A stretch of DNA of 64,000 bases from NCBI RefSeq assembly GCF_020405205.1, contig NZ_CP084469.1, positions 2,232,001 through 2,296,000 of the forward strand, read 5' to 3'. A program made the position numbers and the translations under genes. This document shows positions 3,877 through 56,603 of the stretch, piece by piece. The DNA comes from Natrinema salinisoli. GTDB taxonomy: Archaea; Halobacteriota; Halobacteria; Halobacteriales; Natrialbaceae. Each line of letters starts with the position of its first letter. Positions within the stretch are counted from its first letter, which is position 1. The notes beneath the pieces were generated by a model. That model was not told where the DNA came from. It saw nothing but the letters and a program-made list of their open reading frames with translations, and did no database searches.

Positions 3877-4545
3877 ATGGCTACGGAGGCTTCCTTTACG
3901 GTTCCATCGGACGAGTTCCCGCTGGGGACAGTGTTCGAACGACTGCCGGATGTGTCGGTCGAACTGGAGCGGATCATCCCCGCTCAAGACGTGGTGATTC
4001 CCTACTTCTGGGTTCGGGGAACCAGAGTCGACGACGTCGAAGATGCGTTCTCGGAGCATCCCGGCGTGAAGCGAATTCAGTTCGTCGACTCCGTCGAAGA
4101 CGAGCATCTGTTGCGCGTCGAGTGGGCGGTGGATTACGACGACGTGCTAACCACGCTGACGGAGACGCAGGTCGCGCTCATCTCAGCTGTCGGGACGGAC
4201 GAGCAGTGGACGTTCGATATTCGTGGTGACGCCCATAGCGATATTGCTGATTTCCAATCTCGTTGTCAGGAATTGAATATCTCGATCACGCTCACGGAAC
4301 TGCACGCGCTCACGCCGGTCGAGACGGGTACCGAGGCGGCGCTGACCGACACCCAGCAAGAGGCGCTGGTACTGGCCTACGAGCGCGGCTACTTCGAATC
4401 CCCGCGCGAGACGACGATGGAAGAAATCGGCGACGAACTCGATATCACGCAACAGGCCGTCGCATCCAGACTCCGGCGCGGAATCAAGCACATCCTTGGA
4501 GAGACAGTATCCGACATATCGGCTTCCTCTCGACAGAGGACGTAA
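3877..4545 (+). CDS. HTH-10 (bat-like) transcriptional regulator
   Basis: A 222-residue protein with the two-part layout of bacterio-opsin-activator-like regulators. An N-terminal sensor-like beta domain (residues 1-145) is followed by the C-terminal HTH-10 domain (about 155-210). The latter carries the signature LTDTQQEALVLAYERGYFESPRE (in two parts), then DELDITQQAVASRLRRGIKHIL, the recognition helix. Such proteins regulate haloarchaeal genes in response to light, oxygen or redox, but the signal here cannot be read. Only 11 bp separate it from the downstream DUF7344 gene, suggesting co-transcription. Confidence 0.85.
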   Translation: MATEASFTVPSDEFPLGTVFERLPDVSVELERIIPAQDVVIPYFWVRGTRVDDVEDAFSEHPGVKRIQFVDSVEDEHLLRVEWAVDYDDVLTTLTETQVALISAVGTDEQWTFDIRGDAHSDIADFQSRCQELNISITLTELHALTPVETGTEAALTDTQQEALVLAYERGYFESPRETTMEEIGDELDITQQAVASRLRRGIKHILGETVSDISASSRQRT

Positions 4546-5219: not shown

Positions 5220-5230
5220 AGTTATAAGTA
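5220..5230 (+). promoter_or_regulatory. TATA box of the zinc-ribbon operon leader
   Basis: The sequence TAGTTATAAGTA with an A-rich stretch 5-12 bp upstream is an archaeal TATA/BRE arrangement. The same TAGTTATAAGTA occurs at the matching place before the second zinc-ribbon locus (minus strand, 15576-15587). The expected start 25-28 nt downstream falls at about 5250, exactly where the first conserved helix of the leader RNA begins. Confidence 0.6.
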
Positions 5231-5249: not shown

Positions 5250-5384
5250 CCCGGAGGTCACGTCTCCAATAGAGGGCTTGCGTAAACGCCCCGGGTGCTG
5301 GCACACCCGAGACTGGCTTCCAATCCCGACCAAGGGATTTCGGAAGCATGATTCCGTACATTCTACCGGGATATAAACGTCCCG
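5250..5384 (+). ncRNA. Conserved structured leader RNA, copy A
   Basis: A leader of about 121 nt plus a 14-nt tail, between the TATA box and the zinc-ribbon operon, repeated on the minus strand at 15412-15546. Four helices can be drawn. P1 pairs CCCGG (5250-5254) with CCGGG (5366-5370). P2 is GGAGG/UCUCC (5253-5267), less certain because it competes with P1. P3 is CGGGTG/CACCCG (5292-5297 with 5304-5309). P4 is GCTTCC/GGAAGC plus AATCCC/GGGATT (5316-5347). P4 has different bases but the same pairing in copy B. The 3' strand of P1 can instead pair with TCCCG at 5380-5384, giving two exclusive folds. Function unknown; a cis-regulatory RNA is inferred. Confidence 0.55.
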
Positions 5385-5458: not shown

Positions 5459-5645
5459 CGACAGCGACCCCCTCGAGGACCGCCCGTCGTCCCAGCCCGA
5501 CTGTCCGAATTGCGGCGACCCCGTCAGCATCGTGACCTCGAGCAGGCTGTACCGGGGCACCGCCCACCCCTGTGGCTGCGCGGTGAATCCGGTCCTGCTC
5601 ACGACCGACCACGAGGACCGCGGACTGGGGTCGGGGGCCGAATGA
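5451..5645 (+). CDS. Small zinc-ribbon protein, first gene of pair (copy A)
   Basis: A 64-residue acidic microprotein with one four-cysteine zinc site: CPNC at residues 18-21 and the HPCGC pair about 20 residues later. A short hydrophilic tail follows. It resembles the many one-domain zinc-finger microproteins of haloarchaea, several of which affect biofilm and swarming, but no role can be read here. It is the paralog of the protein at 15118-15333 (CPVC, EPCGC). Its stop overlaps the next gene by 4 nt (ATGA), so it is the first full gene of a coupled pair behind the structured leader. Confidence 0.72.
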   Translation: MPDDSDPLEDRPSSQPDCPNCGDPVSIVTSSRLYRGTAHPCGCAVNPVLLTTDHEDRGLGSGAE

Positions 5646-5782
5646 CCGGGTCTCGACCCGAGGGATCGAAGCGCTGTCCCGACTGTGGCGCGGTGCTCCC
5701 GCACCGCGATCCGCTGATCGGCTGGTGGCTCTGTGACGACTGTGTGCTCGCGGTCACCGACGACGGCGAGCGGATCGAATGA
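5642..5782 (+). CDS. Small zinc-ribbon protein, second gene of pair
   Basis: A 46-residue protein with CPDCG (residues 12-16) and CDDC (about 30-33), a compact C-x2-C / C-x2-C zinc ribbon around the hydrophobic stretch DPLIGWWL. The ATG lies inside the stop of the preceding gene (ATGA), so translation is probably coupled. A near copy of this protein is decayed on the minus strand near 52.0 kb (DPLMGWWLCDDCQLAV). Function unknown; a small nucleic-acid- or protein-binding zinc module is likely. Confidence 0.68.
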   Translation: MTGSRPEGSKRCPDCGAVLPHRDPLIGWWLCDDCVLAVTDDGERIE

Positions 5783-15117: not shown

Positions 15118-15333
15118 TCAGTGACGCGAGGTCCGATCGAGGGTCGGCAGCACCGAACAGCCACAGGGTTCGGCGGTCCCGCTGCGTGGGCCGGTGACGG
15201 TCACGTTCGTTACGGGCTGGTCACACACGGGACAATCGGGGAGGGAGAGTACCCAGGGCTCGGGTGCCTCGCCCGTCTCGCCGGGGTCGGACCGGTCGTC
15301 TCCGCTCGAGTCACTGCTCGGTTCGTCACTCAT
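15118..15333 (-). CDS. Small zinc-ribbon protein, copy B
   Basis: A 71-residue acidic protein with an Asp/Ser-rich N-terminus (residues 1-30) and a zinc site built from CPVC (about 34-37) and EPCGC (about 55-59). It is the paralog of the 64-residue protein at 5451, with the same Cys spacing. I chose the ATG at 15333 because the upstream YILPGYKRP ORF ends there with an 8-nt overlap, exactly as in copy A. An in-frame Met at 15354 would destroy that arrangement. Unlike copy A it has no second zinc-ribbon partner downstream. Function unknown. Confidence 0.68.
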   Translation of the reverse strand: MSDEPSSDSSGDDRSDPGETGEAPEPWVLSLPDCPVCDQPVTNVTVTGPRSGTAEPCGCSVLPTLDRTSRH

Positions 15334-15448
15334 CGTGGCCTCCGCGTGGCTCATGAGTGCGGGCTCGACCGGGAGCCGTCGCTAGTCGTCGGAGTTGATT
15401 CCACCGTCGTTCGGGACGTTTATATCCCGGTAGGATGTACGCGGTCAT
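15326..15448 (-). CDS. Leader ORF with YILPGYKRP motif, copy B
   Basis: A 40-codon ORF beginning MTAYILPGYKRPERR, then a basic Arg-rich tail. The stop (15326-15328) overlaps the zinc-ribbon ATG (15333) by 8 nt. Only the first dozen or so codons are conserved with copy A at 5348, and there the match is almost as strong in nucleotides as in amino acids, so part of the conservation may come from the RNA element it overlaps. The shared start, motif and overlap in two loci argue that it is translated. Confidence 0.5.
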   Translation of the reverse strand: MTAYILPGYKRPERRWNQLRRLATAPGRARTHEPRGGHDE

Positions 15449-15546
15449 GGCTTTCGAAGCCTTCCGGCTTGGAAGCCAGTCTCGGGTGTCATCACCACCC
15501 GGGGCGTTTCGGGCACACCCCCTCCGCTCGCGCGTTTGGAGCCGGG
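15412..15546 (-). ncRNA. Conserved structured leader RNA, copy B
   Basis: The second copy of the leader at 5250-5384, reading on the minus strand. P1 pairs CCCGG (15546-15542) with CCGGG (15430-15426), 121 nt end to end as in copy A. P2 is CTCC/GGAG. P3 is CGGGTG/CACCCG with loop GTGATGA. P4 is GGCTT/AAGCC outside and AAGCC/GGCTT inside, capped by GGAA, a GNRA-type tetraloop. P4 pairs differ from copy A yet remain complementary. The alternative hairpin CGGGA/TCCCG, which competes with P1, is also kept. A TATA box (15576-15587) lies the right distance upstream. Confidence 0.55.
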
Positions 15547-15612
15547 CTTCCATTCTGCTTGTCAATACGTTAGTACTTATAACTACTGCTATTTTTGAGG
15601 AATAAACGAGCG

Positions 15613-55566: not shown

Positions 55567-55905
55567 CTATCGTCCATCCCGATCACCACCGCTCCAATTC
55601 TCCGGGCTACCCCAGCGGAATTCGGGGCGATCGTCCTCGAGCTGGTCACGCTCGAAAAGCCGATCCTGAATCCACGTCTGCAGCGCGGGCCCGGACCGAT
55701 CATGCGGCGGAGAATCCGGACAGTGATGCTCGTCGACGCGAGCCGAGAGGTCGTCGAGACAAGAGACCATCTCGACGAGGACCGCGTTCTGATATCGCAT
55801 CTCCGTCGCGATCGCCTCGAGCGCCTCGGTCTGTCGCTCGACCGCGTCGGCCTGGCGTTCGAGAACCTCCAGTTGCGCCTCGAGTGCGAGGAACTCGTCA
55901 CTCAT
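55567..55905 (-). CDS. Coiled-coil protein of the integration module
   Basis: A 112-residue protein. Residues about 3-60 form a predicted coiled coil (FLALEAQLEVLERQADAVER, QTEALEAIATEMRYQNAVLV). The C-terminal half is hydrophilic with His and Trp (WIQDRLFERDQLED). The ATG at 55905 overlaps the stop of the zinc-finger gene upstream by 8 nt, which decides the start over longer in-frame Mets. In SNJ2 two small genes next to int assist integration and excision; this gene and its zinc-finger neighbour occupy that place, so a similar role is inferred. Confidence 0.66.
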   Translation of the reverse strand: MSDEFLALEAQLEVLERQADAVERQTEALEAIATEMRYQNAVLVEMVSCLDDLSARVDEHHCPDSPPHDRSGPALQTWIQDRLFERDQLEDDRPEFRWGSPENWSGGDRDGR

Positions 55906-56065
55906 AGATGTGAACGGCCTCCGTGATCGTTGATCGAAGCCCGTCTTCGCAGCTGTCACAGACGGTGATCCGTCCGTCGGGATTCTCCACTTCGACCTCG
56001 CGAACGCGGCCCACCGTCAGACCGCACCCGTCGCAAGGTGGAACGTCGTGCTCGGTGGCGCTCAT
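55898..56065 (-). CDS. 55-aa zinc-finger protein of the integration module
   Basis: A short gene: MSATEHDVPPCDGCGLTVGR, then a basic/acidic middle and ITVCDSCEDGLRSTITEAVH at the end. CDGC (11-14) and CDSC form a C-x2-C / C-x2-C zinc site. Its start overlaps the stop of a 25-codon ORF (ATGA) and its stop overlaps the coiled-coil gene by 8 nt, so all are translated in series. It is probably a small DNA-binding accessory factor of recombination. Confidence 0.66.
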   Translation of the reverse strand: MSATEHDVPPCDGCGLTVGRVREVEVENPDGRITVCDSCEDGLRSTITEAVHIYE

Positions 56066-56139
56066 CGACCCACCTCGTGCATATCGCTGTAGTTACAGTA
56101 TCCGGTACTCTTACCGTGGTAGCGTGCCAGTTCGGTCAT
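56062..56139 (-). CDS. Possible 25-aa peptide heading the integration operon
   Basis: A short ORF, MTELARYHGKSTGYCNYSDM ending HEVGR, whose TGA overlaps the ATG of the zinc-finger gene (ATGA). The overlap chain with the following two genes supports translation. There are no recognisable motifs. A TATA-like ATATAATC on the minus strand lies near 56224-56231. Confidence 0.35.
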   Translation of the reverse strand: MTELARYHGKSTGYCNYSDMHEVGR

Positions 56140-56255
56140 GGTCTCACTGTTGTGGGACCGCGGACGAACCGCGCGCGCCGTTGGTTGGACCTGGTGGCGC
56201 GCGCGGCTGCCGTCCGTCGGCTGATTATATCCTCTGTCCCTCTCCCTCTTAGTCG

Positions 56256-56369
56256 TCGGAATGCGGTTTCCGATAGTTCCGAAAAGAGTCGGATTTCGTG
56301 ATTGACACGCTCTCGTCAGTATCGAGTCGTGTTTCGTCGGCTTTCCGAAAGATCGGAAATCGGTTCCGA
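56256..56369. repeat. TTCCGA/TCGGAA hexamer cluster in the divergent control region
   Basis: Within 114 bp the hexamer TTCCGA or its complement TCGGAA occurs six times: 56256, 56268, 56278, 56343, 56353 and 56364, plus a near match at 56290. Several form back-to-back pairs such as TTCCGAAAGATCGGAA (56343-56358). It lies between the minus-strand integration operon and the plus-strand winged-helix gene. This is the layout of iterons at an origin or of an operator array. Confidence 0.5.
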
Positions 56370-56463
56370 AACCGATACTCGAGCCGGCCGTGGGCTGTGG
56401 GCCGTGGGTCGATCGATGCGGTCTATCAGGGGCTTTATTCCCCGTAGCGTCGTGTGGTTGCAT

Positions 56464-56488
56464 GCTTCCGTAGTCTGGATACGGAAGC
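56464..56488. other. Perfect 9-bp inverted repeat
   Basis: GCTTCCGTA and TACGGAAGC flank a 7-bp spacer, and a further inverted repeat (CCGGTG/CACCGG, near 56500-56516) follows. The region 56140-56696 contains no convincing gene, so it is regulatory or replication-related DNA holding these repeats and the hexamer cluster. Confidence 0.5.
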
Positions 56489-56603
56489 CAGGCGGGCCGG
56501 TGCCCCAACACCGGGTCCGCGTTTCTCTCGAGGACCCGACCGGGCAGCGGCGGGTCCGTCTGGCCTCCGTTGGCAGCAATCGAAACATCCCATCCACTTA
56601 TAC

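Follow-up and report, generated by a model that had tools for sequence, protein, structure and literature searches.

Coupled leaders of the hok/mok type combine a folded mRNA with an overlapping leader ORF that controls a second frame. In translational riboswitches, such as the archaeal fluoride riboswitch and the synthetic theophylline riboswitch E in Haloferax, one strand of the P1 helix is shared by the sensor domain and a platform near the start codon. No natural archaeal riboswitch other than the fluoride riboswitch of Thermococcus is stated to have been determined experimentally (PMC8241225). In Haloferax volcanii, approximately 72% of protein transcripts are leaderless, and control by structured leaders has been judged untypical of haloarchaea (PMC4983044). 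Ribosomal-protein autoregulation also uses leader RNAs ahead of small, often zinc-binding proteins, while the brz-brb operon of Halobacterium salinarum encodes a CPxCG zinc-finger microprotein beside a small basic protein. In that operon brb follows brz and encodes a product with a role in bop regulation; the portion of the account consulted mentions no structured leader (PMC3184054).

Here we describe a repeated leader which, on the evidence of sequence comparison, is a real folded RNA of salt-loving archaea, previously undescribed. Its organization depends on three strands: A1 pairs with A2 to form helix P1, which closes a junction with hairpins P2 and P3, while A3, next to the start codon, is an alternative partner for A2. 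As in translational riboswitches, a conserved folded domain of the sensor kind (the P1-P2-P3 junction) sits in the 5' leader, and the platform excludes the sensor helix (A1:A2 and A2:A3 both covary and have equal mean energy). In contrast to those systems, it is the AUG itself, not a Shine-Dalgarno sequence, that A3 abuts, and the element continues into the coding sequence as hairpin P5. Unlike ribosomal-protein leaders, it precedes many unrelated families and no ribosomal-protein genes. The order found in brz-brb is reversed, with the basic ORF upstream of the zinc gene and showing no amino-acid selection. The folded mRNA and overlapping leader ORF are shared with hok/mok-type systems, whereas the products look like soluble acidic zinc proteins.

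A sequence-only reading of the window (the whole 64,000-nucleotide stretch of Natrinema salinisoli DNA analysed here) had reported two copies of the leader, at 5250-5384 on the plus strand and 15412-15546 on the minus strand, with a common TATA box. Both are present at these places, can be aligned with each other and carry the conserved TATA box (table 1), but the window holds three copies rather than two, the third (56410-56571, minus) being detected by cmsearch at 37.2 bits (E = 1.6e-8). This additional copy is divergent in sequence and opens a frame that overlaps a zinc-finger ORF. Against dinucleotide shuffles, the folds of copies 1 and 2 gave z-scores of -3.7 and -2.3. The 4.7-Mb Natrinema genome from which the window comes contains 25 leader copies by blastn and at least 28 when covariance searches are added. 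In Natrinema pallidum and N. altunense (loci L143 and L155), two copies stand in tandem, 494 nt apart; this spacing is about that of one leader-ORF-zinc-ribbon cassette, so these pairs probably arose by tandem duplication.

Table 1. Positions of the leader elements and associated reading frames for the three copies in the window.
Feature	Positions	Strand	Evidence or remark
TATA box, copy 1 (TTATAAG)	5222..5228	+	conserved in nearly all 25 own-genome copies
A1, 5' strand of P1 (GGAGGTCACGTCTC)	5253..5266	+	covariation
Hairpin P2	5272..5291	+	94.6% of cells paired, double changes; missed by the sequence-only reading
Hairpin P3 (CGGGTG/CACCCG)	5292..5309	+	99.6% paired (Natrialbaceae copies); stem base covaries in distant copies
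A2, 3' strand of P1 (GAGACTGGCTTCC), alternative partner A3	5309..5321	+	swap tests
Inner P4 (AATCCC/GGGATT)	5322..5339	+	double changes (see text)
A3 (GGAAGC), abuts ATG, forms outer P4 with A2	5342..5347	+	A2:A3 swap test
Short Arg-rich ORF, 36 aa (MIPYILPGYKRPARQ...), overlapping the zinc-ribbon start at its stop codon	5348..5458	+	
Hairpin P5 inside short ORF (CGGGA/TCCCG)	5367..5384	+	18 compensatory G-C to A-U changes; synonymous sites most conserved
Zinc-ribbon protein gene, 64 aa	5451..5645	+	ORF with CPNCG...PCGC
Second small zinc-ribbon gene, 46 aa, 4-nt overlap	5642..5782	+	
TATA box, copy 2 (TTATAAG)	15576..15582	-	
A1, copy 2 (GGAAGCCCGGCTC)	15539..15551	-	
P2, copy 2	15501..15522	-	
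P3, copy 2	15483..15501	-	
A2, copy 2	15471..15483	-	
P4, copy 2 (inner part and A3), through ATG (15446-15448)	15446..15470	-	
Short ORF, copy 2, 40 aa	15326..15448	-	
P5, copy 2	15412..15429	-	
Zinc-ribbon gene, copy 2, 71 aa, with ATGAGTGA as overlap between its start and the stop of the short ORF	15118..15333	-	
Third copy, divergent leader, same architecture	56410..56571	-	A1 56556-56569, P2 56513-56537, P3 56497-56514, A2 56482-56495, P4 56464-56488, P5 56429-56444
133-codon ORF opened by third leader, ending in an ATGA overlap with the next start	56062..56463	-	
Zinc-finger ORF after third leader, 55 aa (CDGC...CDSC)	55898..56065	-	

The architecture was derived from an alignment of the 25 own-genome copies. 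P1 consists of A1 (GGAAGYCnGUCUC) and A2 (GAGACnnGGCUUCC) and closes P2 (GGGGCG...CGCCCC) and P3 (CGGGUG...CACCCG) into a three-helix junction; P3, already recognized in the sequence-only reading, is real and conserved. P4 has an inner part, AANCC/GGNTT, and an outer part formed by A2 and A3, the latter occurring as GGAAGC, GGAAGCC, AAAGACC, AGAACCC and other variants with the 3' end at or beside the ATG. Since A2 is complementary to both A1 and A3, these two strands compete for it. The bipartite P4 proposed earlier thus has two real and conserved parts, but it is not a plain hairpin: its outer half, GCTTCC/GGAAGC, competes with P1 for one strand. P5 lies approximately 20 nt past the A of the ATG, within the coding sequence, and in Natrialbaceae has a UAUAAACG-type loop, mostly with CACGAC after it. 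A helix CCCGG/CCGGG had been thought to close a 121-nt span; it is complete in just 4 of 104 Natrialbaceae copies, and the strand CCGGG is actually part of P5, within the reading frame. By eye, some copies seem to have an extra short hairpin, capped by a GNRA-like loop, in the stretch from A1 to P2, which would give a four-way junction where present. This subset includes copy 2 (15525-15534, minus; CGC-GCGA-GCG) and L045, L046 and L047, and the hairpin also occurs as CGT-GTGA-ACG, an apparent compensatory change.

The fold is established by covariation. Across 104 Natrialbaceae copies, of which 100 are distinct, pairing is kept in 92.4% of cells and 23 of 34 pairs have changed on both sides, in 136 cells against 31.8 in shuffles; none of 500 shuffles reached as high. 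Double changes affect 32 of the 34 pairs in 50 distant copies (336 cells versus 107 in shuffles). Because both alignments were fitted to the structure model, we made a swap test that is independent of helix alignment, in which the pairing of a copy's strand with its own partner was compared with its pairing to partners from other copies, using 80 distant copies. For A1:A2 the own partner beat the median partner in 75 of 80 copies (z = -17.5). For A2:A3, with A2 limited to the A1-pairing strand and A3 to the 9 nt before the ATG, it did so in 69 of 80 (z = -10.6); an earlier version using wide windows gave a weak signal for the distant copies (z = -1.7). Inner P4 is less fully paired than P1 (77% of cells in Natrialbaceae, 72% in distant copies), and it keeps its pairing under base change as had been claimed, with double changes in five of six pairs. 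The P3 apex, GUG..CAC, is conserved in sequence among the distant copies. G-U wobbles are frequent in P1 (at one pair, as many as 23 of 100 sequences have one), which points to RNA rather than DNA palindromes. When the P1 and P4 states were forced, their energies, computed with standard parameters rather than those of the haloarchaeal cytoplasm, differed by a mean of 0.1 kcal/mol with wide scatter between copies (sd 6.8 kcal/mol), and the P1 state was lower in 41 of 80 distant and 47 of 98 Natrialbaceae copies. Some distant copies have no evident P5, a score of at least 10 being reached in 34% of cases versus 10% of codon shuffles.

The ATG after A3 opens an Arg-rich ORF with a median length of 38.5 codons in 98 Natrialbaceae copies (36 and 40 in window copies 1 and 2). 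In 88 of these 98, a Cys-motif zinc-ribbon ORF follows whose start overlaps the stop, the arrangement of a coupled gene pair, with ATGA in 41 copies and ATGNNTGA or ATGNNTAG in many others. The encoded peptide has a mean net charge of +6.5 and, with pN/pS at 0.99 for codons 2-20, gives no indication of selection on its amino acids. In the P5 codons, synonymous differences (0.021) are rarer than non-synonymous ones (0.111), and GGA-to-AGA and CCC-to-CTC changes are linked, altering two amino acids at once; they co-occur because a G-C pair has been swapped for A-U in P5. Together, the pN/pS ratio and the pattern in P5 indicate that the frame stays open and in register, but that the conserved sequence is dictated by the RNA. 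Whether substitutions follow the helices or the codons of the short ORF had been proposed as a check, and the answer is the helices, given the double changes in distant copies and the lack of amino-acid-level selection on the ORF. In one inspected annotated Natrinema plasmid record, both the short ORF and the zinc-ribbon gene are unannotated. Overlapping gene pairs of Haloferax volcanii were strictly translationally coupled in nine of nine cases, translation of the second gene being lost once the first carried a premature stop (PMC6728339), from which we infer that the short ORF and zinc-ribbon gene are probably coupled at the leader loci too.

Plain blastn detected copies in 72 of 125 Natrialbaceae genomes. 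A covariance model from the Natrinema copies (R1) matched 123 of 392 genomes of the order, while one built from the 50 distant copies (R2) matched 257 of 392, in 73 of its 95 genera. The R2 training set was free of any copy from the window genome, and the model recovers the Natrinema group with up to 97 bits. The E-values are rough as the models were short-calibrated, and copy counts per genome are lower bounds because few candidates were scored in each. In a phylum-wide sample of 247 genomes, 23 had matches, all in the same order; two named plasmids, Haloarcula pNG700 and Halobacterium PHS1, have no leader copy. Rfam 15 yielded no gathering-threshold match in the window and no relevant match at E ≤ 1, and for five loci returned just an irrelevant miRNA match (E = 0.035). 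The suggestion of an undescribed cis-acting archaeal RNA family, with a covariance search as its check, is therefore supported by many further copies, by substitutions that follow helices and by the absence of an Rfam match. Literature searches, which covered mainly open-access papers, found no haloarchaeal structured leader of such a kind. The bistable leader as a device is already known; new to the sources searched are the leader class, its location right at the AUG, its continuation into coding sequence and the proposed relay via an overlapping ORF. A class of bistable leaders present in most of the order's genera contradicts the conclusion, taken as a general statement, that such control is untypical of haloarchaea (PMC4983044).

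Nearly all Natrinema copies head paralogous zinc-ribbon genes. The earlier placement of the leader in front of such genes holds in Natrialbaceae, but the short Arg-rich ORF intervenes and the class extends beyond zinc-ribbon genes. Beyond Natrialbaceae, the main protein is in many cases encoded by the first frame directly. On Haladaptatus plasmids, where the leader occurs at up to 25 places on one plasmid, SWIM-type zinc proteins lie downstream; other distant copies precede Cys-rich microproteins, integrases and Tat-signal-like proteins, and on Halorubrum pHLAC01 a restriction endonuclease is the second gene after the leader. At least two Cys-pair motifs are found in the first or coupled second ORF in 48 of 80 distant copies, compared with 13% of background ORFs. 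With downstream genes this varied, putative zinc binding appears common but not universal. Pfam, NCBIfam and PHROGs returned no family above cut-off for most downstream proteins. One type of leader-headed operon has a zinc protein first, followed by RAMP-like and exonuclease-like proteins, and is possibly an undescribed CRISPR-related or defence cassette. A phage origin was considered and rejected: the leader had no phage match, the SWIM protein had no convincing one, and two SWIM queries found no viral contig encoding a relative. Among individual loci, L129, L130 and L127 (also L107, L109 and L240) show weak matches to the RAMP superfamily (Pfam E = 0.0067) and to Cmr3 together with an exonuclease of DEDDh/RNase H-like type, and the RAMP-type operon of L130 adjoins dndC and probable dndD and dndE.

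Two competing shapes at a start codon suggest a translation switch for small genes, and we consider it probable that the RNA works in cis as a bistable 5' leader and thereby governs how the first reading frame is translated. On our best reading, the targets of the switch would be integrases, RAMP operons and small proteins, most of them zinc-binding. When P1 forms, A3 and the AUG would be free for initiation (ON), while with A2:A3 formed a helix directly against the AUG would block it (OFF), the assignment of the two states following from their geometry. In Natrialbaceae, ribosomes ending on the short ORF would reinitiate at the overlapping zinc-ribbon start and so relay the setting of the switch to that gene. 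Sensing would probably fall to the P1-P2-P3 junction, where the P3 apex is conserved, and P5 would be part of the element despite lying in coding sequence. A protein, or a metal or small ligand, bound at the junction is the most likely trigger, with ionic conditions also among the candidates. Such a leader would offer a natural RNA switch in archaea that operates directly at the start codon, define a regulon of largely unannotated microproteins and make testable how translation is regulated where Shine-Dalgarno sequences do not drive initiation.

Two further readings are sub-cases of this cis-acting switch. One state could be held at the junction by the downstream zinc protein or a shared RNA-binding protein, meaning autogenous or regulon control like that of ribosomal-protein leaders. 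The enrichment of Cys-pair proteins downstream and the paralogous zinc-ribbon genes behind nearly all Natrinema copies are consistent with this, and we regard it as a tentative possibility; the RNA architecture stays constant, however, in front of wholly different families (SWIM, zinc ribbon, RAMP operon, integrase, Tat-signal-like), which rules out any one encoded product as the binder at all loci. Alternatively, the three-helix junction might be the aptamer of a riboswitch for a ligand such as a metal ion. That the controlled genes are not recognizable as biosynthesis or transport genes makes this rather doubtful, despite an aptamer-like layout in which P1 competes with the expression platform, the sequence conservation of the P3 apex and the large number of putative zinc proteins encoded downstream. 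An unlikely extension is a natural riboswitch class spread across the haloarchaea, possibly sensing a metal such as zinc, that gates microproteins and mobile-element and defence operons by AUG occlusion without a Shine-Dalgarno sequence.

The remaining readings depart from the cis-acting switch altogether. Numerous copies with conserved promoters might be expected of a mainly trans-acting small RNA or processed fragment, but the leader directly precedes and runs into an ORF, and A3 abuts or nearly abuts the ATG in the 80 distant copies examined, which renders this improbable. We give very little credence to a conserved small peptide gene with incidental RNA folding: although the ORF stays open, overlaps the next start in most copies and encodes a strongly basic product, P1-P4 covary upstream of the ATG, pN/pS is about 1.0, the GGA-to-AGA and CCC-to-CTC changes are tied through P5 pairing, and elsewhere unrelated proteins follow the same RNA. 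A DNA-level repeat or mobile element (MITE, REP or operator palindrome) could account for dispersed copies and for the tandem pair in two Natrinema genomes, but is scarcely credible when G-U, equivalent to an A-C mismatch on the other DNA strand, is widely tolerated and the copies are flanked by promoter and ORF.

For the cis-acting switch, the TATA boxes predict a transcript start close to the 5' strand of P1. In several distant copies (L099, L101, L105, L107 and L115) the TATA box is surrounded by an inverted or direct repeat whose sequence differs from copy to copy, suggesting that transcription control varies by copy while the RNA is shared; these repeats are putative operators combined with the common leader. 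No genomic partner is common to all Natrinema copies. HTH_10 (bacterio-opsin-activator type) domains occur within approximately 1 kb of three copies (window 4342-4497, plus; C1:318854; C1:2758617), reminiscent of the Bat homologues beside small zinc-finger genes in Halobacterium, and are too few to explain the leader family. A small divergent gene, for an HTH protein or of unknown type, lies upstream of many distant copies. At L125, L127, L130 and L134, a conserved divergent protein of 70-83 aa is encoded just upstream on the opposite strand; its first 70 residues have no Pfam match, and it follows the pattern ..YRAIMTETDREHISGESD..AVYRV..RI.EELP.DI..L.EHRP..L.ELREVV.
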